Assembly: GCF_020921035.1 (NCBI RefSeq)
Contig: NC_063157.1
Span: 23,205,015-23,269,014, forward strand
Origin: Rhodamnia argentea
Lineage: Eukaryota; Streptophyta; Magnoliopsida; Myrtales; Myrtaceae
Direction of reading: 5' to 3'
DNA: 64,000 bases
Shown here in pieces: positions 2,218 through 63,820 of this stretch (positions within the stretch are counted from its first letter, which is position 1; every line of letters starts with the position of its first letter). Below the pieces are notes generated by a model. That model was given only the letters and a program-made list of their open reading frames with translations. It was not told where the DNA came from and made no database searches. Position numbers and translations under genes: made by a program.

Positions 2218-3150
2218 TTAGGGCTTGGACTTGGCACCACCACCGCCACCGTCGTGCTCCATGTAATTCATCACCGCCTTAGCCCCCTCCGCGATGGCGT
2301 GCCGCCCGAGCTCGCCAGGCAGGACCAGCCGGACCGCACCCTGGATGTCCCGCGACGTCAAAGTCTTGATCCCCGCGTAGTTCGACAGCCTCGCTGCCTC
2401 GGCGGCCAGCCTCTCGAACATGTCGTTCATGTACGCATTGAGCACTTCCATCGCCGCCGACGATATCCCAAGACCCGGATGCACCTGCTTAAGCACCCGG
2501 AACACGTACCTCTTGTACTGCTCCGCCCCGACTCCGTCCCCAACCCTCCGCCTCCGCCTCCGCCGCCCTACTCTTGCCTTCTCGTCCTCTTCTCTGGCTC
2601 TCTTTGGCTTCTTCTCTGCCTCGGCGTCTTTCTCCGGGGATCTCTCTTCCTCTGTTCTCTCCGCGGGTCTCTCTCTCTCTGTCGTCCCCTGCGCTTTCTT
2701 TCTCTCTCCATCGAGAGCCGGCTCTTCCTTAAGAGTCTCCGCTTCTCTCTCTGCCGCGGCTCGCGGGGTGCCCTCGGGGCTCTGAGTCTCTTCGTCCTCT
2801 TCTCGCTCTTCGCGGTCCTCCTCCTTGGCGTCTCGCGTTGTTTTCTGATCGTGGGTCTTGTCTTTTGCCTCCGTCTCCGGTTGTCTCGGCATTCGTGGTG
2901 CTTCAGTGACGGTTTCTTGCCGTGGAGGCTGCTCGATGGGGATCTCGACCGTCGCCTGTTCGGCTCCTCCCGGTAATTCGCCTTCCACTGTTACGGTGGT
3001 CTTCACGACCTCGCTTTCTGATTCTTCTTGCAGCATCTCGTCGGATTCGGCGCCTAGTTTCTGGTCTTTTGCGACGAGAGCGACTTCGACCGTTTCTTGA
3101 ACCACCTTCCTCGTCGTCTTGATGACCTTGGCCTTACGCTTCGGAGCCAT
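2218..3150 (-). CDS. Histone H2B variant with long charged N-terminal tail (H2B.8-like)
   Basis: This is an intronless gene for a 310-residue histone H2B. Residues 212-299 form a complete H2B fold: '[20 protein letters not shown]' opens helix 1, then the central helix, then '[20 protein letters not shown]'. Typical plant H2B is about 140-150 residues. Here residues 1-210 form a disordered tail rich in Glu, Lys and Arg, ending in a run of seven Arg (196-202) that may be a nuclear signal. The C-terminal 'AVTK' of canonical H2B reads 'AVMN', so the mono-ubiquitylated Lys is Asn295, and the tail ends in Gly5-AKSKP. Known biology: flowering plants have a male-germline variant, H2B.8 (Arabidopsis At1g08170), with an extended disordered tail that condenses sperm chromatin. 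By architecture this is a candidate orthologue. That assignment is inferred, but the H2B fold is certain. The start is the first Met of the frame, followed by MAPK as in many plant H2Bs. Confidence 0.9.
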
Positions 3151-3720
3151 CAGACCCTATTTGTTCGCGTGCTTTTCTTTCTTCTTACAGTGATCGGAGC
3201 GTCTCCCTTTTTCCCTCGCTTCGGAAGCAATTTGAAAATGGTGGAGAAGTGAAGATGGGTGACGGGTTTTTGCAAACGGTTGTCTGAACGGAGGACACGT
3301 GGAGGGCACTTGTCGAAGAGCGGGAGCGGCAGAATGACAACGTGGGGTTAAAAGTAAACAGTAAGAGACAGAGGTTGTTTCTGGATAAGTTTGGGCCAGG
3401 TGACACCTGTGTGCTTCTTATCTTACGATTTTCATCTGCTCTTTTCGCGATTCGTGAAGATAATCGCAGAGAGTGGAAGAGGTCGCCGCTCGAGTAATCG
3501 GAAGAATTTTCCAGCATCATCATTAGGATTAGCGGGATTAGGCCAGCTATAGGAAAATGTCCTTGAAAAAATGCAAATATTTTCAAGTTAATGGAGATTT
3601 TCGAAATGTAAATAATATTTAGTAAAGTATATTTTAAAAATAAATTAAAAAAAACTTTGACGAAAAACAATTTGATAAAAAAAACCATTCATAAATAAAT
3701 TGATTTTTTAATTACTTTCT
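3151..3720 (-). promoter_or_regulatory. Upstream region of the H2B-like gene
   Basis: About 350 bp of GC-balanced sequence lies immediately upstream of the minus-strand start, then turns AT-rich (3560-3720). No confident TATA box or histone-type octamer was found by eye. An open frame of 167 codons on the minus strand (3185-3688) runs through it but looks compositional. It has no domain, and its start lies in A/T runs. Confidence 0.35.
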
Positions 3721-5170: not shown

Positions 5171-6170
5171 AAGCAATTGGTTAGTCCCCAAAGATCTCCG
5201 AACATTAAGAAGTTCGTTCAAGCCTCTAAGTTTGACCAGTATCTTGTTCCAACCATCGACTATGAATACTTGGTTCCACTTTCTCTTCCAACCGCGGGCA
5301 GCAAGCTGAAAAAGCCCTTTCCCCTTTGTCTAATAGTTTTTGTTGGTAAGCTTCATATTTCCAACCTATACAAGGGGCAAGCCAAAACCAAATAAAGGAA
5401 GGACGGCCCCACCCTGAAACAAAGGTGTACGTACATAAAATAAATGAGGCCTTACGAATGAACTGCCTTACAACTCCGTGGGGAGGCTTCGGTTTCAAGA
5501 AGCTTTTGTCAAGTACCTCCCTAGAATGCATTTCGATCACCATAGGTTTGGTACAAGAGGAATCCTTACCTCTTCTAAGCCGGAACAAGAGAACTCATAA
5601 CCACTGCTTATGAACATCTCTCCTCAACTGAAGGCGCACCCACTTTGACTATTAGTCTAGTCTCTCTCGGGTGGATAAGAGATGAATGAGGTCTTACGAG
5701 TGAAGCGCCTTACGGCTCCATGGGGAGGCTTCGGTTTCAAGAAGTTTTTGTCAAGCACCTCTCTAGAATGCATTCCAATCACCATCCAATTTTTATTTAA
5801 TGTAAGGATTGTCGGTTCCCTAGTGCACACTCGGACCTTGAAGAATGGAAGCGGCGTGGTTGACTTAGTGAGGAGTCCCGCTATCGAATCCAAGAGGTCG
5901 AAGCAAAAAGAGTGCTCGCCGGTCCCACCCCATAGAAAGGGGAAAGGTAGAACCGGATCTCTTCGTTAGCCTATGAATAAGAGAATCTGAGGTGTGTGAA
6001 AGCGCTCTTTTAGATGCTCTGACTTTGGATATTGTGAGCTCCAACTTAAGAGCTTCCATGCCTCTTTTTTCTTTTGTGAGCGGTTGACCACCCGTTGTAG
6101 ATTTCAATCTTCCTTACCATGGGGTGAGGACCTATACCTCACTCTAAGAAGGAGAGCCCCTCGAGCAGAT
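5171..6170. other. Possible organelle-derived segment with a 101-bp direct repeat
   Basis: This is balanced-composition sequence unlike its flanks, with phrases such as 'caccccatagaaaggggaaa' and 'gagcggttgaccacccgttg' that resemble plant mitochondrial DNA. No mitochondrial gene is recognised. It contains a direct repeat: 5443-5543 and 5685-5785 share the 'ggggaggcttcggtttcaag' core, offset by 242 bp. Several short open frames here are not convincing. Confidence 0.3.
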
Positions 6171-6294
6171 ATTATAATCCATAAATTCACTACGAAACAA
6201 GGCTGGAAACAAACCCTAAATTGGAGACTTTGGAAAACTACATAAACTTAAACTATCAATCATATTAATATTACATCCATCTCCACATAGAAGT

Positions 6295-8209: not shown

Positions 8210-8709
8210 TCAAACAACCTTCAGAACTCCACCTTGTGAAGAATACCTGCATCCAATCGAATCAAGAGCACCCAAGGAAATTAAGTTCTTTTTCAATTCT
8301 AGGACGTGTCTTAATCCAGTTAATGTCATCACAATACCATCGTGCATCCTAATTTTAACATCACCAACACCCACAACATCGCATTCGGTGTTATTCCCCA
8401 ACTGCACTTTACTACTATCCGTGCACCGATAAGTAGCAAACCAGTTCCTATTTGGTGTAGCATGAAAAGAACACAACCAGAATCCATAATCCATCCGTCA
8501 AATGACGAATTTTCAGTGAGAGACAAGACCCTATCGATACCATCAGAATTATCAGCTACAGCTGCAACATCATCTGCAGATTCAACTCTAATTCCCTTGC
8601 CCATTTCATTTTTCAGCTTAAAACAATTCCTTCTAAGATGCCATCTCTTGTCACAATTCCAACAGACAACACCACCAGTCCTAAACCGATCGCATCTATT
8701 TGAGTTCAT
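8210..8709 (-). pseudogene. Copia zinc knuckle and protease remnant
   Basis: A CCHC zinc knuckle, 'CWNCDKRWHLRRNC' (C-x2-C-x4-H-x4-C), lies at about 8623-8664. It is followed by the aspartic protease active site 'WIMDSGC' at about 8476-8490. A frameshift right after the active site moves the rest of the protease ('GLRHVLELKKNLISLG') into another frame ending at 8210. The segment starts one frame away from gag, overlapping its stop. It is a broken copy with no expected activity. Confidence 0.8.
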
Positions 8710-9278
8710 ACTAAAGCAGTAGATACATATTTGCCGGATTCTCTTCTACGGATGTTCTCACTTAAAATTAAATCTCGAATACCATCGAACGTCAAACTTA
8801 TTGACCTAGAGGAATTACTAACAACGAATAAAGTAGTACTCCGGCTATCGGGTAATGAGGATAATAAAATCAAAGCACATACCTCATCTTCAAAGTCAAT
8901 ATCAACTGAACTCAATTGACTACCGATCACATTGAATTCATTGATATGATTAGCAACGGACGCACCTTCGCTCATTTTCAAATTAAACAAAAGTCGCATC
9001 AAATAAACCTTGTTGATCGCAGATGGCTTCTCATACATATCTGATAGGGCTTTCATCAAACCCGTTGTGGTATTCTCTTTAACGATATTAAGCGCGACGT
9101 TATGAACCAATGTTAGTTTGATAACACCCGGCGCTCGTTTATCCAGCAATTCCCAATCAGCTTGCTTCATCATCTCTGGTTTCTCTCCGGACGGGGGCAA
9201 GTGCGGCTTCATCTTCCAGAAACCAAAGTCATGTCCCTCAAATCTGTCGATTTTCATTTTTACTTCTTCTATTGCCAT
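8706..9278 (-). CDS. Copia gag protein (UBN2 type)
   Basis: A 190-residue open frame begins just downstream of the primer site on the minus strand. It shows the standard copia gag pattern: an N-terminal 'FEGHDFGFWKMKPH', then 'ALSDMYEKPSAINKVYLMRL' and 'INEFNVIGSQLSSVDIDFED', which are typical of UBN2 gag. It lacks its zinc knuckle in frame because of a shift at the end (the knuckle follows in another frame). Gag would package element RNA. The rest of the element is defective, so any role would be in trans at most. Confidence 0.85.
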   Translation of the reverse strand: MAIEEVKMKIDRFEGHDFGFWKMKPHLPPSGEKPEMMKQADWELLDKRAPGVIKLTLVHNVALNIVKENTTTGLMKALSDMYEKPSAINKVYLMRLLFNLKMSEGASVANHINEFNVIGSQLSSVDIDFEDEVCALILLSSLPDSRSTTLFVVSNSSRSISLTFDGIRDLILSENIRRRESGKYVSTALV

Positions 9279-9304
9279 CGATTCGCTTCAACTTGATAAG
9301 CCTA

Positions 9305-30479: not shown

Positions 30480-30640
30480 GTCGCATGTAAGACCCGTATG
30501 ATGTAATAATTGAGATCATGTGGCTTCATATCATGACCCGGGACGCTAGATGCCTCTATATATGCTGGTGATTAGCCAGTTCATTGTCCCGCCGAGTTTG
30601 GAATTCTTCACAAACACACTTCTTGTGCACGCAACAAACC
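30480..30640 (+). promoter_or_regulatory. Core promoter and leader of S28 gene A
   Basis: A TATA-like 'ctatatatg' lies at 30556-30564, about 80 bp before the start codon. From 30480 onward the sequence is nearly identical to 51925-52088 in front of gene D, which has the better TATA (tatataag). This marks the left edge of the duplicated unit. Confidence 0.6.
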
Positions 30641-33587
30641 ATGACTCTTTCTCGGCTCTATTTCATCATCTCCTTCATTCTATCCGCAGCTTCGATTTCT
30701 GGACACAAACTTTACACTCCGACGCTGAGTCTACAACGCAAAAATTTCCTCCGAGATCCGGAACGTGCAGTTTCGGCATCCGTATCTAATGACTTCGAAA
30801 CCTTCTTCTTCAACCAAACGCTCGATCATTTCAACTATAGACCCGAGAGCTACACCACCTTCAGGCAGAGATACTTGATCAACTCCAAATATTGGGGCGG
30901 TGCAAATTCTAGTGCGCCGATCTTTGTTTACCTCGGTGCCGAAGAGCCGATAGACGAAGACTTAATAGGGATCGGGTTTCTGACCGACAACGCAGCTCAA
31001 TTCAAGGCTCTATTAGTCTATATCGAGGTTATACATTTGAATTCTACCCTTTTCTTTTGGGTCCATGCATGGATGTTCTTTCTGTCTAATTTCTGCTTCT
31101 AACCAAGTAATTAAACTCTTCTTTTCTTGTGGAATCTTTCTGGTCAGCACCGGTATTATGGTGAGTCAATTCCACTTGGGATGAGCTTCGAAGAAGCTCT
31201 CAAAGATGCAAATGTTCGTGGGTATTTTAGCTCGGCCCAAGCTTTGGCCGATTATGCAGCCATCATCTTGCACATGAAGCAGAATCTGAAAGCCAGGGAT
31301 TCTCCAGTTATTGTCGTGGGAGGATCATATGGAGGAAGTAAGTGGAATTGGTGTTTGTCCTATCCATAATGGCGTATGGTAGAGAGAAATAATAGGAAAG
31401 GGTCCATGAGAAGTTTGACGGGTTCTGATTAGTTGACTACGTAAAAAACCAGTGATATGTGAAAATGATGACTTGTTATTGTCAGTTATTTTCCACAGAA
31501 ATACTAATTCCTCGTTCATGCGAAATAGATATATCGTATTGTTAAATTTTTTTTTTGGTCTAAAGTATCGTTAAATTAAGTTGTTGAATTCTAATAGCTA
31601 ATGCGAATTTCAGTGCTTGCCTCGTGGTTCCGGCTAAAATATCCACACGTGACCCTCGGAGCTTTGGCCTCATCAGCTCCAATACTGTATTTTGACGACA
31701 TTACCCCGCAGGATGCATACTATTGGGTGGTCACCAAAGATTTTAAGGTAATTACACCCGTATTATATCTTCTTCTTTTTTGATGTAATAATGGGGCGTG
31801 TGGCACTTCTCAAGCATCCTAAGAATATCGATTAATTGAGGCAAAATCGCTGTCAATCCCCTTGTACGCACACAAGTTAAGTATACGAGTACACATATTC
31901 TCCTAGAAGATGCCGTCGATAGAATTCAAAGGTGTAGTTATTTGTAACCACACCTCAAGTGAGAAAGATATATAAAATTACCGCCTGAATAATGTTTAGG
32001 ATACTCTTTGCTTTTCATAATTTGTGTTGAACCATGATCGTTTTGCGCAGGAAGCTAGCGAGACTTGCTACCAAGCTATAGGAGACTCATGGTCGGAGAT
32101 CGATAGAGTTGCTCAAGAGCCTAATGGCACTGCAAACTTAAGCAAGATGTTCAAGACATGCAAGTATGTGATCTGATGTGTAATACTCAAGTTGCTATAA
32201 AAGTATTCCCATCCCATTTCTCAATTTTAGAAGAGTTGAACCCTTCTCACTTTTCCTTACCAAAAAAAAAAAAAAAAAACCCTTCTCACTTGAGAAGGGG
32301 GAGGTGGGGGTTTCGATTCCCCACTTCTCGAGGAGGGGGGATTGTGTTTAACTACTATACTTGAGATTAACTACGACTTCATTTTCTTTTGTGCGTGTGG
32401 GTGTAGGCCTTTAAAGAGTGGGGATGAGCTGAAGGATTACTTGACATCTTTATACGCGGGAGCAGCTCAATATGATGATCCGGTTAGGAATCCGGTGACA
32501 GTAATATGCAACGGCATTGATGGAGCAAATACTACTGAAAATGGCGTTCTTGGCAAAATATTTGCAGGCGTCGTCGCCTATCACGTGAACTCCCCATGCT
32601 ACGTCAATCCTCCAACTAATGTTTCCGAAACTGATTTGGGTTGGGGGTGGCAGGTAAAATAATTTGGGTTGGGGGTGGCAGGTAAAATAATTATTGAATT
32701 CTACATCATGTTTAGGCATCGGGCCTATTTTAATTGCACCATCCTTCTCTTGAAGTCTTCCTCGTCACAAATTGTGTTAGTGTCTGAGAAAACTTGAAAT
32801 GCTAAAAGGGAGATTTGCTTGCAGAGATGCAGCGAAATGGTAATGCCCATAGGCATCACAAACAATTCTATGTTCCCGTCCTACCCTTTCGTCTTGAGTA
32901 GCTTCATTGACGAATGCAACTCCTCGTACGGCGTTGTGCCTCGCCCGCATTGGGTCACTACATACTACGGTGGTCATGTATGATTTTCAGCGACTTTTGG
33001 AGAATATAAGTTACGGCTCTTATTTCGATCAGTAGATTAAACTGTTTTCCATGCCCTACCCTTTCATTGTTATTGCAGGATATAGAGCTAATTCTTCTTA
33101 GGTTCGGCAGCAACATCATTTTCTCAAATGGACTCCGAGATCCTTACAGCAGCGCAGGGTATGTAACATTATATGCTTGTCTCCACACATTTGAAGAATC
33201 AAAATTTTACGTTACTTAATCACTCTTAACGATTTGATCTCTTTTCCAATCTTAGGGTCCTAAAGAACATTTCTGACAGTATCATCGCCGTCTACACAGA
33301 GAAAGGTATGTAACCAGGCGATGCATGTACTGTTTGTGACTTGTCCTACGCACCCGTGAACCGCACAAGAGAAGAACAAGATTGATGCGCATTAAATTTT
33401 ATTTTTCAATGGATCTTGAATTCTTTCATCTGTGAATTTATGTTTTGCAGGTTCCCACTGTTTGGATATACTTGCACAGAAGCAAACCGATCCGGACTGG
33501 TTGGTCATGCAGCGAAAAACTGAAATCGAGACTATCAAAGGGTGGTTGGCCACATATTATGCCGATCTTCTTGCTTTCAAACAGTGA
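30641..33587 (+). CDS. S28 serine carboxypeptidase, Pro-X type, gene A (type 1)
   Basis: Nine exons: 30641-31027, 31148-31337, 31614-31747, 32051-32163, 32407-32653, 32825-32977, 33079-33158, 33256-33305 and 33451-33587. All introns are GT..AG, and the parts join to 496 codons with no break. The product is a lysosomal Pro-X carboxypeptidase-like enzyme of family S28, which removes residues C-terminal to proline. The signal peptide is about residues 1-21 ([20 protein letters not shown]). Catalytic Ser189 lies in GGSYGG, Asp429 in NGLRDPYS and His454 in GSHCLD, almost the spacing of human PRCP. Several N-glycosylation sites (NQT, NSS, NVS, NIS) fit a secreted or vacuolar enzyme. Compared with gene D it carries charge changes in an otherwise conserved stretch (GAEEPIDED against GAEAPIDGD). 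The Met at 30641 was chosen over an upstream in-frame ATG (30584) because it starts the signal peptide. Confidence 0.88.
32240..32291 (+). mobile_element. Poly-A micro-insertion with 13-bp target duplication in intron 4 of gene A
   Basis: Two copies of acccttctcactt (32240-32252 and 32279-32291) flank ttccttacc plus about 17 A. Gene D has a single copy at the equivalent place (about 53688-53699), the empty site. The pattern is that of LINE-mediated insertion of an extremely truncated tail. Confidence 0.65.
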
Positions 33588-47522: not shown

Positions 47523-48952
47523 TGCAGAAATCCTCATACACCCGAAGCATAAGTTGAATGCCAAACGATCTCCAATAATCGTCATTGGAGGATCATATGG
47601 GGGAAGTAAGTGAATATATTTTCACATAGGAGCAACATTACTACCGCTATAAATTGAAATTAAAGAATATCGCCCACTATTTACTTTAGACAAGACATTG
47701 CTGGTTTCCGTTGACCCAGTTATTATAGTAGAATGTAGTAATCATATATATAATCTGCCGTAGGTTCTTGTTCTTGAACTTATCCTGGATGGAGCTTTTC
47801 CCAATGAGCGCCAGATATAAATATTGATAGCTTGCACTGAAGGCATTGAAGAAAGTTCCTACCCTCTGATTAAGAGGAAAAACTCAACGCCATATATTCT
47901 ACATATAACTTAGAAATATGTGTTCCAATATTCACAAATTTAATTTTCAGTGCTAGCAACATGGTTCCGATTGAAGTACCCTCACGTGGCTCTCGGAGCT
48001 TTGGCATCATCTGCTCCAGTTCTCTACTTTGACAACATCACACCCCAGGACGCATACTTTTCGGTTGTAGCAAAAGACTTTTTGGTAATCTTAATTTGCT
48101 CAATTTATACCTTTTCCTCTTGAGTGCATTTTCTACAATCAAATCGATCGCTTGAACAGTTGTGTGAGTGATTTTTCAGGATACTAGTCCTTCTTGTCAC
48201 CAAACAATGAGACTATCCTGGGAAGAAATCGATAGAGTTGCTTCTGAGCCTCTTGGTTTCACGAAGTTGAGCAACACCTTCAAAACTTGCAGGTGCAAAT
48301 ATATATTTTCTTTTCATTTTTTAACTGATTCTGAGAATAGTTGTGAAAGTTCTAACTCTATTATTTTCCTTCTGTTTAGTCCACTGCAAAGTTCATCAGA
48401 TCTCACGAGTTACCTGAGAACACTGTACGCACAAGTTGCTCAGTACAATGATCCATCCACACAACCCTTGAAACTTATGTGCGATGCCATTAATGGAGCT
48501 TCTCCAAGAATTGGCATTCTTTGGAAAATCTTTGCAGGCCTTGTTGCCGTCAATGGCAACTTAACATGCTACGTCAATCCCACTTCTGGTGGCACAGATG
48601 AAACTCAGTTAGGTTGGACTTGGCAGGTGTGTAATGTGTATTTATCACGAACATATGCGACTTCTATTTTTCTCACTCACTTTTTATCTATTCGTTATGA
48701 CAATTAATTAGAGGATTATGCTGTCGAGTCAAGTCGAATCGCTTGATTATTTACTACTACAGCTTGGCTCTTCTCAATTATATGCTAACACGTGATAGTG
48801 GCGAGCTTGATTTTTGAGGCTCAAGTTTTATGGAATGAAGTGTTATTAGGCTTGAGGTAAATCCGATGCCATCTGCTTATCGAAAAGCAAGTTTTAGTAC
48901 GAGTTTGCCTTATTAAAACCTAGTTACGAGGCTTGAAAGAAAGTATTAGATG

Positions 48953-51924: not shown

Positions 51925-52088
51925 CAAGTCACATGTAAGACCCATATGATGTAATAATTGAGATCAAGTGGCTTCATATCATGGCCCGGGACAATAGATC
52001 CCTCTATATAAGCTGGTGATTAGCTAGTTCATTGTCCCGCCGAGTTTGGAATTCTTCATAAACACACTTCTTGTGCACGCAACAAGCC
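51925..52088 (+). promoter_or_regulatory. Core promoter and leader of S28 gene D
   Basis: TATA box tatataag at 52005-52012 is 77 bases before the start codon. It is nearly identical to the region in front of gene A, where the box is weaker (tatatatg). Confidence 0.65.
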
Positions 52089-54961
52089 ATGACTCTTTCT
52101 CGGCTCTATTTCATCATCTCCTTCATTCTATTCGCAGCTTCGATTTCTGGACACAAACTTTACACTCCGACGCTGAGTCTACAACGCAAAAACTTCCTTC
52201 AAGATCCGGAACGTGCAGTTTCGGCATCCGTATCTAACGACTTCGAAACCTTCTTCTTCAACCAAACGCTCGATCATTTCAACTACAGACCCGAGAGCTA
52301 CACCACCTTCAGACAGAGATACTTGATCAACTCCAAATATTGGGGCAGTGCAAATTCTAGTGCGCCGATCTTTGTTTACCTCGGCGCCGAAGCGCCAATA
52401 GACGGAGACTTGATAGGGATTGGGTTTCTGACCGATAACGCAGCTCAATTCGAGGCTCTGTTAGTCTATATCGAGGTTATACATTTGAATTCTACCCTTT
52501 TCTTTTGGGTCCATGCATGGATGTTCTTTCTGTCTAATTTCTGCTTCTAACCAAGTAATTAAACTCTTCTTTTCTTGTGGAATCTTTCTGGTCAGCACCG
52601 GTATTATGGTGAGTCAATTCCACTTGGGATGAGCTTCGAAGAAGCTCTCAAAGATGCAAATGTTCGTGGGTATTTTAGCTCGGCCCAAACTTTGGCCGAT
52701 TATGCAGCCATCATCTTGCACGTGAAGCAGAATTTGAAAGCCAGGGACTCTCCAGTTATTGTCGTGGGAGGATCATATGGAGGAAGTAAGTGGAATTGGT
52801 GTATGTCCTATCCATAATGGCGTATGGTAGAGAGAAATAATAGGAAAAGGTCCATGAGAAGTTCGACGGGTTTTGATTAGTTGACTATGCAAAAAACCAG
52901 TGATATGTGAAAATGATGACTTGTTATTGTCAGTTATTTTCCACAGAAATACTAATTCCTCGTTTATACGAAATAGATATATCGTATCGTTAAAATTTTT
53001 TTTGGTCTAAAGTTTCGTTAAATTAAGTTGTTGAATTCTAATAGCTAATGCAAATTTCAGTGCTTGCCTCGTGGTTCCGGCTAAAATATCCACACGTGAC
53101 CCTTGGAGCTTTGGCCTCATCAGCTCCAATACTGTATTTTGACGACATTACCCCGCAGGATGCATACTATTGGGTGGTCACCAAAGATTTTAAGGTAATT
53201 ACACCCGTATTATATCTTCTTCTTTTTTGATGTAATAGTGGAGCGTGTGGCACTTCTCAAGCATCCTAAGAATATCGATTAATTGAGGCAAAATCGCCAT
53301 CAATCCCCTTGTACACACACAAGTTAAGTATACAAGTACACATATTCTCCTAGAAGATGCCGTCGATAGAATTCAAAGGTGTAGTTATTCGTAACCACAC
53401 CTCAAGTGAGAAAGATATGTAAAATTACCACCTGAATAATGTTTAGAATACTCTTTGCTTTTCATAATTTGGGTTGAACCATGGTCGTTTTGCGCAGGAA
53501 GCCAGCGAGACTTGCTACCAAGCTATAGTAGACTCTTGGTCGGAGATCGATAGAGTTGCCCAAGAGCCTAAGGGCACTGCAAACTTAAGCAAGATGTTCA
53601 AGACTTGCAAGTATGTGATCTGATGTGTAATACCCAAGTTGCTATAAAAGTATTCCCATCCGATTTCTCAATTTTAGAGGAGTTGAAGCCTTCTCACTTG
53701 AGAAGGGGGAGGTGGGGGGTTCAATTCCCCACTTCTCAAGGAAGGGGGGTTGTACTATACTTGAGATTAACTACTACTTCCTTTTCTTGTGTGTGCGTGT
53801 GGGCGTAGGCCTTTAAAGAGTGGGGATGAGCTGAAGGATTACTTGATGTCTTTATACGCGGGAGCAGCTCAATATGATGATCCGGCCAGGAATCCGGTGA
53901 CAGTAATATGCAACGGCATTGATGGGGCAAATGCTACTGAAAATGGCGTTCTCGGCAAAATATTCGCAGGCGTCGTCGCCTATCACGTGAACTCCCCATG
54001 CTACGTCAATCCTCCCACTAATGTTTCTGAAACTGATTTGGGTTGGGGGTGGCAGGTAAAATAATTATTGAATTCTACATCATGTTTGGGCATCGGGCCT
54101 ATTTTAATCGCACCATCCCTCTCTCGAAGTCTTCCTCGTCACAAATTGTGTTAGTGTCTGAGAAAACTTGAAATACTAAAAGGGAGATTTGCTTGCAGAG
54201 CTGCAGCGAAATGGTAATGCCCATAGGCATCACAAACAATTCTATGTTCCCGTCATACCCTTTCGTCTTGAGCAGCTTCATTGACGAATGCAACTCCTCG
54301 TACGGCGTTGTGCCTCGCCCGCACTGGGTCACTACATACTACGGTGGTCATGTATGATTTTCAGCGACTTTTAGAGAATATAAGTTACGGCTCTTATTTC
54401 GATCAGTAGATTAAACTGTTTTCCATGCCCTACCCTTTCATTGTTGTTGCAGGATATAGAGCTAATTCTTCTTAGGTTCGGCAGCAACATCATTTTCTCA
54501 AATGGACTCCGAGATCCTTACAGTAGCGGAGGGTATGTAACATCATATGCTCATCTCCACACATTTGAAGAATCAAAATTTTACATCACTTAATCACTCT
54601 TAACGGTTCGATCTCTTTTTCAATCTTAGGGTCCTGAAGAACATTTCTGACAGTATCATTGCCGTCTACACAGAGAAAGGTACGTAACCAGGCGATGCAT
54701 GTACTGTTTGCGACTTGTCCTATGCACCCGTGAACTGCACAAGAGAATAACAAGATCGATGCATATTAAATTTTATTTTGCAATGGATCTTGAATTCTTT
54801 CATCTGTGAATATATGTTTTGCAGGTTCCCACTGTTTGGATATACATGCACAGAAGCAAACCGATCCGGACTGGTTGGTCATGCAGCGAAAAACCGAAAT
54901 CGAGATTATCAAAGGGTGGTTGACCACATATTATGCCGATCTTCTTGCTTTCAAACAATGA
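52089..54961 (+). CDS. S28 serine carboxypeptidase, Pro-X type, gene D (type 1)
   Basis: Nine exons: 52089-52475, 52596-52785, 53061-53194, 53498-53610, 53809-54055, 54199-54351, 54453-54532, 54630-54679 and 54825-54961. Their lengths equal those of gene A exon by exon, giving 496 codons. The catalytic triad is complete: Ser189 (GGSYGG), Asp429 (NGLRDPYS) and His454 (GSHCLD). The predicted signal peptide [20 protein letters not shown] directs it to the secretory route. Family S28 enzymes cleave a C-terminal residue next to proline at acid pH. Differences from A are few and mostly conservative. In exon 1 D keeps the GAEAPIDGD form and Glu where A has Lys before 'ALLVYIE'. Introns are also nearly identical to A, so the two are recent duplicates. 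Upstream lies pseudogene C's tail. Which of A and D is the main expressed copy is unknown, but D has the better TATA box. Confidence 0.9.
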
Positions 54962-58245: not shown

Positions 58246-59889
58246 ATGCCTAAAAACCAAGGGTCAAAGTCCGGAACCTCCGAGGATTCGGACAATTTTT
58301 CCAATAATCAAGGGTTGGGCAATCCACCCTTGGACCCTCAATCAACTCTGATAAATGATACCCAGACCACTCGAGAAGGCCATGAAGAGCTTTTGAAGCC
58401 AACGCAGCACAACAGTGGGCCCATTCAGCCCCACACGTAACAATTTTTTGGAGGGCCATATGTTCAATGGATCCCTGTTCCTGTCTGACCTCCCCAGAGC
58501 AGTATGGGCCCTACGGAGAGGACCCACCCCGGGAGTAGTGGACCAGGAGGAGGCCCTACAATTTTTCCGGAAGGCAATCCATGGCCCGGCTCTGGATGGA
58601 CCTACCCAAGTCAGTATCAAGCGCCTGGACCTAGTTGGGCATACTCGGGTCCGAACATTTCGAGTCCGACGGGTCCGACGGTTTTTCCTTACCCCGGTTT
58701 CGGACCCGGATTTTTTTCCTTTGCGGGAACCTCCGACGGTCGACCGGAGCCAGGGGATCCCCTATACACGACTGCCGCCGACGGACCCGAGCTTCGCCTA
58801 ATCTCTACACAACTCTTATGGCCGGAAAACTACTCCGTCTGGTCCCGAGAGCTCCGACGGGCACTCACGACAAAGGACAAAGAAGGGTTTCTTGATGGTT
58901 CTATCCCTATTCCGGTCGATAAGCGGCTTGCACGTCACCGGAGGAAGTGCAACCAGCTCGTCCGAACATGGATTGGCAAATGCCTCACCCCAAAAGTTGC
59001 TGCCGAACTTCCTCCGACCGAAGACGCTAAAAAATTTTGGGAAAACATCCGGGAAATGTACGGGAAGCTCGATAGGGCTAAGATTTTCTCAATAACCCAA
59101 GCCCTATCGGAGCTCGGGCAAGGCAATTCCTCAATTTCAACAATTTTCAATCGGCTCTCCGCGCTATGGAACAGATTTGAGGAAGATTCGGAAAAGCTTT
59201 GAGGATCGGAGGAAACCCTAACTCGGTATCACGCGATTAGGGAAAGGGAGAAGGCAACAAGGTTTCTATTGATACCGAACGAGAGTTATCTACCTTTTCG
59301 TAGCCAAATCCTTGCTATGGAACCAATTCCATCGCTCGGCCGGATTTACCAGCTTGCGGTGTGAGAGGAGTCGCAGCGTCCGGCCTCATCGGAGTATGTC
59401 AAGGTAGTAGATTGGGTCTTCCTCGTGGCTAAGGTGACATCGGACCAACGCCCGCTTGTGGCAAAGTCCGGCTATGGCACCTATGGAGGCTCGGGAGGAG
59501 AGAGCTCACGGCGCCTAGGGCTACTGGAGGAGGAAGAAGACGTTGCTCTCTTGTCAAGGGATGGTCGAGATTTGTTCGGCCCATCCGAAGGCTCTAGACG
59601 TGTAAGACCATTACTCAATGCAAACGGTTCTGATTTGCTCATGGGATCAAATGGCGCATATTACCCTGTGACATCCGACGGTCGGGGATTTGTCCTCGCG
59701 GCGGGCGGATCAAACGGAGGACAACGCTCCACGGCTTGGAAAGGATCAAATGGCCAGAATTTTTCCAACAAATCACATGCTAATAAAGGGAAAGGTAAAT
59801 TTTGTGATTATTGCAAACGTCCTTACCATACCCGTGAAAATTGTTGGAAATTACATGGCAAACCAGTAGACAAGGAAAAAAAGGAGTGA
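58246..59889 (+). pseudogene. Copia gag with zinc knuckle, broken
   Basis: The first ATG after the primer site is at 58246, and that frame stops at 58440. The gag core continues in another frame from about 58504: 'LLWPENYSVWSRELRRALTT', 'RTWIGKCLTPKVAAELPPTE' and 'FNRLSALWNRFEEDSE' are typical of the Retrotran_gag/UBN2_3 type. TGA codons cut it at 59200 and about 59362. A CCHC knuckle, 'CDYCKRPYHTRENC', lies at about 59806-59847. The N-terminal Pro/Gly-rich part is unusually long. Not functional. Confidence 0.82.
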
Positions 59890-60537
59890 GACATTTCTAT
59901 TGATGCACATGCTAAGGCTGATCAGCCGATCAATAAGGATCACATTCAGCAGATTATGAGAGCCCTAAGTCGGATGGGAACACAAGATAAAGCTACTAGC
60001 TATGCAGGTACTTCTCACTACTTAAGCTCGGTTTCAAGCAAAGCATGGATCATTGATTTCGATGCTAGTGATCACATAGTCTACAATAAACATTTCCTCT
60101 CCGATATTCACAAATCCACTCATCATACATCCGTAAGTCTTCCTAATGGAGATAAAACTATTGTTACCAAAGTTGGGACCATTCAACTTAATCCCTCCAT
60201 CACTCTAAAAAATGTGTTACTCATTCCCGATTTTCAGTTTAACTTCATATCGGTTTCCAAACTCTATGAAGACAACTCTTGTCGAGTTATTTTCAACCAC
60301 GACATCTGCTTCTTGCAAGCCCTTTCGACCGTGAAACCGATGGGCTTGGGTAACAATCACGAGGGACTCTATTTTTGGGCTGCTTTTCCCACTGGTTTCG
60401 ATGTTTCACATTTTCCCTTCAATAAGGACATCTTATGTAATGCCGGTATTAATGAAAAAACCATTTTATCTCATCAACGTTTGGGTCACAGTGCTTCTTT
60501 TCCTTCACCCAAAGTGTTCTATTTGTCCTCTCGCTAA
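59890..60537 (+). pseudogene. Copia protease region, active site altered
   Basis: It continues the gag frame after a TGA. The protease motif normally reading IDSGAS is 'IIDFDASDH' (about 60050-60076), so the catalytic Ser-Gly neighbours are changed to Phe-Asp. The following 'LKNVLLIPDFQFNFISVSKL' is the standard end of the protease. It runs into the integrase zinc-binding start ('SHQRLGH') before the frameshift. Confidence 0.8.
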
Positions 60538-61633
60538 ACAATCGCGTTTATCCTTTCCACATAGTGCATCACGAGCGACTGCAGTTTTTTCTCTATTGCA
60601 TATGAACATTTGGGGACCATATCACACCCCACACCGTGATGGATCTCATTTTTTTCTCACAATCGTGGATGACCATACACGAGCAACTTGGGTTTTTCTG
60701 ATGCAATCCAAGGCCCAAGTCCTTTCCATTCTCCAAAATTTTCTCACCCTTATCAAAAATCAATTCCACAAATCCATACAGCGGGTACGTATCGATAATG
60801 CACGGGAATTTTTTAATCATGAATGTTCTTCTTTTTTCATCGCCAATGGCATCCTTCATGAAAGTTCCTGCACATACACTCCTCAACAGAACGGTGTTGT
60901 CGAAAGAAAACATCGGCACCTCCTTGAAGTTGCTCATGCACTTAAATATCAAGCCTCTATTCCGGAAATGTTCCGGGGAGACTGTGTGGTCACAGCGGCA
61001 TACTTGATCAATTGGATGCCATCTCGTGTTCTCAACGGACAAACCCCTTTCGAATTGCTTTTTGGAAAGAAACCAGATATTGGTCACCTTCGTGTATTTG
61101 GATGTCTCTGTTATGTATCTACTGTGGGGCCTCGGACTAAACTGGATCCTCGTGCCATTAAATGCGTCTTCATGGGATACCCTACTCTTCGGAAGGGATA
61201 TTTGGTATATGATACATCCACCACGAGGTTCTTTGTCAATCGAAATGTTATTTTCCATGAAGATGTTTTCCCTTTCCACGAAGAATTATCTTCTCATCAA
61301 CGGGTTGGTGCGACTACTGATCAACGACCATTTTTGGTTGAAGAAATGTTTTCATCACAACCACAAGTGATGATCCCTTACTCGACATCTCCTGTGGCAT
61401 CTCCGGCCATTGATTATGATGCAGCACCATCACCAGCCTCGGAAAATATGACTCCTCATGTTTTACACGATATTCCATCGCCATCTCCATCACCAACTTC
61501 TTTGGGTGATATAGCCTCGGAAACACTTGGGATTATTCCATTACCTCCACCACGACGTTCTCGTCGTACTACACGACCTCCCACGTGGATAGCAGATTAT
61601 ATTTGCCCTACCTTGGAGTCATCTGGTACATGA
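60505..61633 (+). pseudogene. Copia integrase, catalytic Asp lost
   Basis: From the frameshift, the frame reads 'CSICPLAKQSRLSFP' (zinc finger) and then the rve core. The first catalytic position is 'HMNIWGPY', where copia has HxDxWGP (Asp to Asn, about 60606). The second Asp is kept in 'VRIDNAREF' and the Glu in 'VVERKHRH'. After it come 'FGCLCYVSTV' and 'CVFMGYPTLRKGYLVYD', the usual C-terminal box, then a Ser/Pro-rich linker ending at a TGA. Confidence 0.85.
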
Positions 61634-61765
61634 TATCCTGTCTCTTCGTATGTAAGCTTTGCTCGTCTTTCATATGAACACATGTGCTGTATTAGTAGAA
61701 TATCTGAAGGATAGGAGCCACCCTCTTATCATGAAGCTGCTAATGACCCTCATTGGCAACAAGCA

Positions 61766-62056
61766 ATGGCCGATGAATTACAAGCCCTAATGGACAACAA
61801 AACTTGGGATGTTGTTCCTCTACCCCCTCATCGAAAATCCATTGGCTGTAAGTGGGTTTACAAAATCAAATATAGGGTGGATGGCTCCATTGAACGCTAT
61901 AAAGCACAACTAGTGGCCAAAGGATTTACACAACGAGAAGGTTTTGATTACACTGAAATGTTCTCTCCAGTAGCAAAGGAAGTCACCGTTCGTTCTTTCC
62001 TCTCTGTTGCAGCACTTCGAGATTGGCCCCTTCATCGGATGGATGTTCACAATGCT
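61766..62056 (+). pseudogene. Copia reverse transcriptase, N-terminal fragment
   Basis: 'MDNKTWDVVPLPPHRKSIGC', 'KWVYKIKYRVDGSIERYKAQ', 'LVAKGFTQREGFDYTEMFSP' and 'MDVHNA' form the start of the RVT_2 domain. The reading breaks right after DVHNA (normally followed by FLHGDL), well before the YVDD active site. Confidence 0.9.
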
Positions 62057-63820
62057 CGCTGCAAATCCCCATCAAAAGCGCTACACGACAAAATAAAAGG
62101 AGTTTGAAGTGGGCTGATCTACCATTGTTTGTGCGAAACTCCTTCGCTGTTTGTGAGCATCCCGAGCCGGCCGCGACGAGGTGAGTCCTAGTCCAAAGCC
62201 TTGCACGAGTGTGAGCTTCCAAGTTGTGCGTATCCCTCGAGCCCTTATCCGCGGATTGGCGACTTGGAGTTCAAATTGGCAACACAAGGGGCTGTTTCGC
62301 TGCTCTTTATGTCAAAAACAACATTGTTTGGAGGTGATTTTCGGGCAAATTCACAGCTTTGAAGTGCACATTTTTAGGCTCAATTCAAGTGCAGTATTTT
62401 CTGGGATCACTAGCGAGTGTTTGGCTCAAGTTTGCTTGGCGACCAAGTTTTTCTTCAAAATTCAAATTAGGTTATTCCTTATCTCTAGATATATTTTGAA
62501 TATTGCTTGATTGAATTGAATGTTCCAAAGATTATATGAATTTTGGATATACATGGTTGCCTAATTTGGAGGATTTTGAACTTGGAGTATATTTCATGAA
62601 TTTTGTGCAGACCCTTGATATGCTTTGGTGGATGATTTTTTTAGCATGTTTATTTTCGCATATTGTTTACCATTTACTTTATATTAGCCTTGTTATAAAG
62701 TTTGAACTTTAGTAAACAATATTGCTCATAACACATGCTCCCTAATTGTGCCTTGTCCCTCGAAAAACGTACATTAACGGCAACATATGACTTCGATCTT
62801 GAAGTACGATTGTGCCCGTACGTTTGAATTAGATATCAAATCCTCGATCTCGAGGAGCGGATTGCTAATTCCTAAAGAGAATTTCAAGGTTTGCCATTGC
62901 TAATTCCTAAAGAGAATTTCAAGGTTTGCCCTATGTATATAGGGACTACGGTAATTCCATAATATATTCACTTGCTAACCCTAATCTCGGGGGCTGTTGT
63001 GAATAAAAATCGAAATTTCGAATTTAAAGGTGTTTTATGGGCAATATTGTTTATTTTTGTTCAAATTTCATTGTTTCCATGGTTTAAATAATTTCCTAAA
63101 AAATCCCAAAAAAGATGTTACGTTTTCTTAAGCTAAATCATATTTCTCTTCACTTTTCGCATGAAAATAACGTCTAATAAAATTAGGACTTTGAAAAATC
63201 AATTTCTTAAATTAAATTAGATGTTACTTCACGTTAGGGTAGTTTTTACCTTTATTTTTTTTTATAAATCCGAAAATACACAAAAATATACCATGCACGT
63301 TGCATAGCATTATAGTTTAGTTTGCATTATTATATTTTCCTTGTCATGCATATTTGCCACGTCATTATGCCATATCTCGCATTTTTGCCATGTCATTACA
63401 TCTCACATGTCATATAAGTAGATTGCATTAGCATTGCATTTTTTTTTTTTTTGTAAGGATTGCATTAGCATTGCATTTAATAAAAGAAAACCCCAAAAAA
63501 TTAATTCAAATCATCAAACTAAGGATTTTTCATGAAAATCGGGTATCAAAAGGGCATTAATTGAAAAGTTAATGTAACGAAGTCCCCGAATCCATTTAAT
63601 CTCTGGTTCGTATGAAATAAAGTATTTTCTCTCGAATACTTTATTTAGGTTTCTAATCTACCTACCATAAAAGATTAGTGGCGGCTCCAATTTAAAAACT
63701 TGGCATGTAATTGAACCTAAGTTGCGATTCGGTAGGACTTGGGAGAGTCCGATTAGGTTAGTTAATCTAATTAATCTAATAATCTGTTAACCTGAAAAAA
63801 TCAATTTTTAGGTCGCGATA
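62057..63820 (+). mobile_element. LTR (5'-truncated) of a Ty3/gypsy Ogre/Tat-like element
   Basis: The last 300 bp match the end of the solo LTR at 34077-36549, including 'agtggcggctccaat' and 'aggtcgcgata'. A primer site follows 3 bases later, which sets the LTR end at 63820. The expected start TGTCGACATC is absent at the junction with copia, and 1.76 kb is shorter than the 2.47-kb solo LTR, so the left end was probably lost. Inside are a 36-bp tandem duplication (62862-62933) and a poly-A micro-insertion (63421-63478). Confidence 0.7.
63421..63478 (-). mobile_element. Poly-A micro-insertion with 21-bp target duplication
   Basis: Two copies of gattgcattagcattgcatt (63421-63440, 63458-63477; one further T shared) flank a T run plus gtaag. 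On the minus strand the insert is CTTAC followed by A, the same tail as at 32253-32278 (CTTACC plus A). Confidence 0.6.

Follow-up and report, generated by a model that had tools for sequence, protein, structure and literature searches.

Flowering plants possess a class of histone H2B variants, known as H2B.S or class III HTB, that is described as having a KVVXETV motif, an expanded tail, a slightly extended C terminus, and substitutions within the histone fold (PMC7410336, PMC7694166). The chief fold substitutions of the class are Arg152 and Met179 in Arabidopsis H2B.8, a protein in which Asn replaces the Lys that is ubiquitylated in canonical H2B (PMC7410336, PMC7694166). Orthologues of HTB8 are reported to range from approximately 19 to 32 kDa, and the citation of residues 122 to 243 of Arabidopsis H2B.8 gives that protein a total of 243 residues (PMC7694166). 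Purifying selection on the class is reported to be relaxed (PMC7410336).

H2B.8 of Arabidopsis is incorporated into AT-rich chromatin that is inactive, where the H2B.8 tail, which includes a 93-residue disordered stretch, draws nucleosomes into condensates (PMC9668745). A disordered tail insertion is common to all H2B.8 homologues identified, the sequences of which are diverse, and scrambled or unrelated disordered tails still condense nuclei (PMC9668745). Moreover, Arabidopsis H2B.8 with the N234K substitution, in which the Asn is returned to Lys, gave full complementation of the phenotype in sperm nuclear size (PMC9668745), and thus the missing Lys is a mark of the class and not the working part. 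Arabidopsis H2B.8 is expressed in sperm and seed, and the rice and maize members are reported as seed expressed with no evident expression in anther, pollen, or sperm (PMC7410336); the label of the class as seed specific is disputed (PMC7694166). In the available text of a rice paper (PMC10985897), H2B.8 is named only within the reference list, and a search of the literature from 2023 on found no paper that joined H2B.8 with nucleosome, orthologue, and seed. Here, we describe a putative member of the class from Rhodamnia argentea, encoded within a stretch of 64,000 nucleotides that is referred to throughout as the window.

Results

A complete, single-exon coding sequence, which we assign to the H2B.8/H2B.S type, runs from ATG to stop on the minus strand of the window (2218..3150). 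Its 310 codons are unbroken and encode a protein with a predicted mass of 34.6 kDa, in which an N-terminal tail of 209 residues precedes an H2B fold of 88 residues and the last 13 residues form a C-terminal tail. The Pfam Histone profile matched the protein with a score of 61.6 bits (cutoff, 26.4; E = 1.1e-16), NCBIfam returned one archaeal histone match that fell below the cutoff, and no relatives of the gene were found in a prokaryote genome collection, as expected there. A chance open reading frame is ruled out by the Pfam Histone match and by an alignment of the tail, described below, that outscored 1,000 of 1,000 shuffles. GC3 was 0.85 in the fold and 0.63 in the tail. The coding strand of the tail contains 7% T, a single donor-like GTAAG at codon 5, and no acceptor-like YYYYNYAG. 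We conclude that a hidden intron within the tail is unlikely, as T is scarce and an acceptor-like site is absent.

The histone fold occupies residues 210 to 297 (2260..2523, minus strand), and H2Bs from the Protein Data Bank matched over those residues, without gaps in the five alignments shown. Together with the Pfam score, the alignments bear out the preliminary description, which had read the C-terminal third of the protein as a clean H2B fold. The C-terminal Lys that is ubiquitylated in canonical H2B, and that marks the canonical protein, is absent; the site is occupied by Asn295, which aligns with N234 of Arabidopsis, and its loss had been called correctly. Also within the fold, R214 and M241 are separated by 27 residues, the same spacing as the published Arg152 and Met179, and canonical H2Bs carry Ile or Val at those positions; the equivalence assumes that the numbering in the paper omits the first Met. 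Asn295 is followed by 15 residues, whereas the canonical H2Bs of this genome end 4 residues beyond the Lys, and residues 298 to 310 (2221..2259, minus strand) form an extended C-terminal tail of the kind published as a class feature.

Comparisons with Arabidopsis H2B.8 relied on a provisional sequence that does not come from a database entry and that we take to be the Arabidopsis protein. The provisional sequence agrees with print in having 243 residues, Asn234, and Arg153 and Met180 (which become 152 and 179 if the initial Met is not counted), and the composition of its residues 27 to 119 is exactly that of the printed scrambled tail; the checks cover these features only. The preliminary description had likewise given a total of about 243 residues, which agrees with the cited residues 122 to 243. 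The window fold was identical to that of the provisional H2B.8 sequence at 57 of 88 positions, versus 51 to 52 of 88 for six canonical plant and animal H2Bs, and, when 89 positions were considered, at 57 versus 52 to 54 for three canonical H2Bs of the same genome. Eleven fold residues, including both of the published class residues, were common to the window protein and Arabidopsis H2B.8 and absent from all six canonical H2Bs. Among 66 columns that were invariant in the six canonical H2Bs, the window protein departed at 21, H2B.8 at 20, and both at 15 (hypergeometric P = 1.7e-6), with the same residue at 7 of the jointly departing columns and different residues at 8.

A phylogeny of the fold, which the preliminary description had proposed as a check, was built from 11 rows, with the provisional Arabidopsis sequence as the sole H2B.8 row. 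The window gene and Arabidopsis H2B.8 formed a branch with support of 98/97, and grouping of the window gene with the plant canonicals was rejected (p-AU = 0.011). The window branch was flagged as long, and divergent rows may attract each other. The outcome of BLASTP depended on settings, and a search with the whole protein gave only a weak tail match to Arabidopsis H2B.8 (E = 0.004). With low-complexity masking, the H2B.8 fold gave 136 bits (63% over 92 residues) and a same-genome canonical gave 123 bits (62% over 87 residues); without masking or composition adjustment, H2B.8 scored 154 bits versus 132 for the canonical; and when masking was off but adjustment was on, a match was returned to the canonical fold (124 bits) and none to that of H2B.8. 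We conclude that the class motif and class residues outweigh the tree, because long branches of this kind could be drawn together.

The tail that precedes the fold has 209 residues, and those of the four canonical H2Bs recovered intact from this genome have 52, 53, 54, and 58; the window tail is thus 3.6 to 4.0 times longer, in keeping with the earlier estimate of three to four times the canonical length. Residues 15 to 21 read KVVQETV (3088..3108, minus strand) and match the published KVVXETV motif; in the longer form of the motif, KVVxETVxVxV, the final Val is replaced by Leu. When aligned to the provisional Arabidopsis H2B.8 tail, residues 1 to 195 scored 94 and the first 29 residues alone scored 55, and neither score was reached by any of 1,000 shuffles. 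When the N-terminal motif was removed from the tails, 26 of 1,000 shuffles scored as high. TVEIPI, at residues 67 to 72 (2935..2952, minus strand), is a possible second tail motif that resembles TVEIPV and TVKIPV of the provisional Arabidopsis sequence, a likeness noticed although H2B.8 tails are described as diverse in sequence.

Residues 27 to 195 (2566..3072, minus strand) form a low-complexity region, predicted to be disordered from hydropathy and charge, that is 49% charged and 8% Pro with a net charge of −21. The region includes the stretch, at approximately residues 93 to 195, that accounts for the excess size of the protein (the excess stretch) and of which 59% of residues are charged. 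The dominance of Glu, Lys, and Arg that had been ascribed to the tail applies mostly to the excess stretch, and residues 1 to 92 are instead richer in Val, Gln, and Pro. The purine content of the tail from codon 91 on is 66 to 80% per 30-codon block, and a repeat search detected 1.9 tandem copies of a 27-bp unit with 84% matches (2631..2682, minus strand), a nine-codon duplication inside the excess stretch. A run of seven Arg residues is present at residues 196 to 202 (2545..2565, minus strand), as had been described, but canonical H2Bs of the same genome carry KKRAKRS or KKRVKKS at the same place before the fold. We conclude that the Arg7 run is not peculiar to the window protein and is no novelty in itself.

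By the hydropathy-charge (Uversky) rule, residues 1 to 209 and 27 to 195 are disordered, residues 1 to 92 are narrowly so, and residues 1 to 40, which contain the class motif, lie on the ordered side of the boundary (0.458 versus 0.440). The disorder claimed for the tail is thus predicted for the tail as a whole and for residues 27 to 195 but does not extend to residues 1 to 40. A single-sequence structure model of low confidence (mean pLDDT, 51.2; pTM, 0.25) placed helices at residues 182 to 203, 207 to 223, 231 to 259, 266 to 276, and 280 to 299 and none before residue 182. Net charge per 20 residues was +6 at the start of the protein, 0 to −7 over approximately residues 21 to 190, and +7 before the fold, with near-neutral breaks interrupting the acidic middle. 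When charge blockiness was compared to shuffles, 35 of 500 were as blocky as residues 27 to 209, 362 of 500 as residues 93 to 195, and 30 of 500 as Arabidopsis residues 27 to 147. We conclude that the charge patterning of the tails is not clearly nonrandom.

The genome of R. argentea (346.7 Mb, 74 contigs) was searched with the Pfam Histone profile, and all 34 places found were compared to the window protein and to canonical H2B; the search scores the best candidates only, and counts for large families are lower bounds. Besides the window gene, the search indicated four canonical H2Bs with intact frames and, in L009, L016, L023, and L024, four H2B pieces that look decayed; for all eight, the canonical H2B query gave a better score than the window fold did. 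Eight of the remaining loci contained H3- or H2A-like strings, and no match to either H2B query was obtained at the others with E values up to 10. Of the 34 places, the window gene alone was of the H2B.8 type, and a more distant copy could fall below the reach of the profile. One locus, L009, holds both an intact canonical H2B (5761-6189, minus strand) and a decayed-looking H2B piece (2645-3151, minus strand) and shares its contig and strand with the window gene, at a distance of approximately 45 to 49 kb, an arrangement that could reflect an old tandem origin.

In the 600 bp upstream of the canonical H2Bs, CCAAT was found at −138 to −151 in all four, TATAWA in three of four, and the CGCGGATC octamer in two of four; CCAAT, TATAWA, and the CGCGGATC octamer were all absent from the 600 bp upstream of the window gene. 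Motif matching indicated two candidate elements upstream of the window gene (3275..3302, minus strand): CCACGTGTC, of the ABRE/G-box type, starts at −152, and AACCGTT, which fits the DUO1 motif RRCSGTT, starts at −131. A second ACGTGG lies within 200 bp upstream of the ATG. Counting of CACGTGKC and RRCSGTT within 250 bp of each other gave 22 of 6,375 overlapping windows, from which their co-occurrence appears confined to one place in the 64 kb, with CACGTGKC at 3294. The ABRE/G-box-type and DUO1-type elements are 12 bp apart, a hint of seed and sperm-lineage control. A literature search found no paper that joined DUO1 with the string AACCG. Upstream of the canonicals, ACGTGG was present in three of four, a G-box in one of four, and RRCSGTT in two of four, and the motifs were picked post hoc, after the sequence had been seen. 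We therefore regard the upstream motifs as leads only.

Of 10 other open reading frames in the window to which Pfam was applied, 6 were matched (4 as copia-element pieces and 2 as S28 peptidase pieces) and 4 were without a match. Pieces of copia-type long terminal repeat (LTR) retrotransposons comprise a gag frame (8709-9287, minus strand) and separate gag, integrase, and reverse transcriptase frames (58489-62104, plus strand). The two frames that matched Peptidase_S28 (30572-31099 and 52062-52547, plus strand) are alike by eye, and frames near the pair (32294-32659 and 48168-48704) are S28-like by eye without a Pfam match. The S28 frames probably arose when a Pro-X carboxypeptidase-like gene was duplicated locally.

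Discussion

We conclude that the window gene is very probably the R. argentea H2B.8 (H2B.S, HTB8-like). The fit to H2B.8 put forward in the preliminary description is sustained by the class motif, R214 and M241, Asn295, the long tail, the extended C terminus, and the tree, and two of these, the KVVxETV motif and the class Arg/Met pair, support the assignment at the sequence level beyond the features that were used at the outset. By analogy to Arabidopsis, the protein would condense chromatin by means of its tail. The fold would pair with H2A and replace canonical H2B in nucleosomes, as expected for the family. The long disordered tail, with its acidic middle and basic ends, may then cause nucleosomes to cohere into condensates, as for Arabidopsis H2B.8, and nuclei could be compacted without the need for a fixed tail sequence. 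Tail-driven condensation seems the best explanation because the charge order resembles that of Arabidopsis H2B.8. The condensing strength of the tail could nonetheless differ from that in Arabidopsis, as the charge is higher, Pro is less abundant, and near-neutral breaks interrupt the acidic part.

The site of action is most likely sperm, maturing seed embryos, or both. The label of sperm-chromatin condenser given initially holds for Arabidopsis H2B.8 but not for the rice and maize members, which are seed expressed without evident sperm expression. It is possible, if doubtful, that the gene belongs to the H2B.8 class by descent but acts mainly in the dry seed embryo and contributes little or nothing in sperm, an account that overlaps with tail-driven condensation. 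The seed specificity of the rice and maize members, for which expression in anther, pollen, or sperm is not evident (PMC7410336), would be consistent with such a role, as would CCACGTGTC and the second ACGTGG, which are of the ABA-response type and lie within 200 bp of the ATG. However, the same region has AACCGTT, a fit to the sperm-lineage motif of DUO1, not all authors accept the label of seed specific (PMC7694166), and the motifs were chosen post hoc and recur upstream of the canonicals (ACGTGG in 3/4, G-box in 1/4, and RRCSGTT in 2/4).

Another way in which a long-tailed H2B could arise is if a canonical duplicate evolved rapidly, its tail grew by purine-rich slippage, and its likeness to H2B.8 was convergent. 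The small difference in fold identity (51 to 52 of 88 to canonicals versus 57 of 88 to H2B.8), the purine content and 27-bp tandem duplication of the tail, and the presence of a canonical H2B and a decayed piece some 45 to 49 kb away on the same strand are consistent with such an origin, but the N-terminal 29 residues, which are not part of the excess stretch, gave an alignment score to H2B.8 that 0 of 1,000 shuffles attained, 11 fold residues including both class residues are shared, and canonical grouping was rejected (p-AU = 0.011). We consider a canonical origin largely refuted and scarcely credible. It is also very unlikely that the gene, although its frame is genuine, is in decay or lacks expression, with the long tail reflecting lost constraint. 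Relaxed purifying selection in the class (PMC7410336), the low-complexity expansion of the tail, and the decayed H2B pieces elsewhere in the genome would fit with decay; against decay, all 310 codons are intact, GC3 differs between fold and tail (0.85 versus 0.63), the start, motif, fold, and C terminus are all in place, and no other H2B.8-type gene was found among the 34 places to take over.

The window gene brings a naturally long-tailed member into a class whose tail reportedly works by physical property and not by sequence (PMC9668745). The tail is 41% longer than that of Arabidopsis and has a different charge makeup with a similar charge order, and thus is a natural variant with which that claim could be tested. 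One speculation, which we think improbable, is that residues 93 to 195 or so are a lineage-specific addition that shifts the condensate from the acidic Pro-rich type of Arabidopsis to a polyampholyte type of high charge and thereby tunes chromatin packing in sperm or seed.

The window protein is a member of a described family, and its size, above the published span of 19 to 32 kDa, is a real difference. Sorghum H2B.4, at approximately 32 kDa the upper end of HTB8-orthologue sizes (PMC7694166), has a long N-terminal extension like that of the window protein, as compared by description, and is smaller than the 34.6-kDa window protein. Lily mgH2B.in, a male germline protein also compared by description (PMC7694166), has an extended N terminus and a related motif but is far shorter (193 residues), and its class motif is modified. 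The canonical H2Bs of R. argentea (L009, L010, L011, and L012) share the fold and the basic stretch before it but differ in having tails of 52 to 58 residues, the ubiquitylation Lys, and CCAAT upstream.

The closest likeness is to Arabidopsis H2B.8, in which net charge runs from +5 through −3 to −5 and then to +8 in the provisional sequence, an order similar to that of the window protein. Both proteins have a basic run before the fold, Arg in the window protein and Lys in the provisional Arabidopsis sequence, both have a basic-acidic-basic order, and each is encoded by the one gene of its class, for R. argentea among the 34 histone places. The window protein is 310 residues long compared to 243, with a tail of 209 residues compared to 148, and the tail is thus longer than that of Arabidopsis H2B.8, as first noted. 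The published 93-residue Arabidopsis stretch is 30% charged and 16% Pro with a net charge of −18, whereas residues 27 to 195 of the window protein are 49% charged and 8% Pro with a net charge of −21. Arabidopsis H2B.8 (HTB8, At1g08170) and the window protein are alike in the N-terminal KVVxET, the Arg/Met pair, and Asn at the ubiquitylation site (PMC9668745, PMC7410336, PMC7694166).
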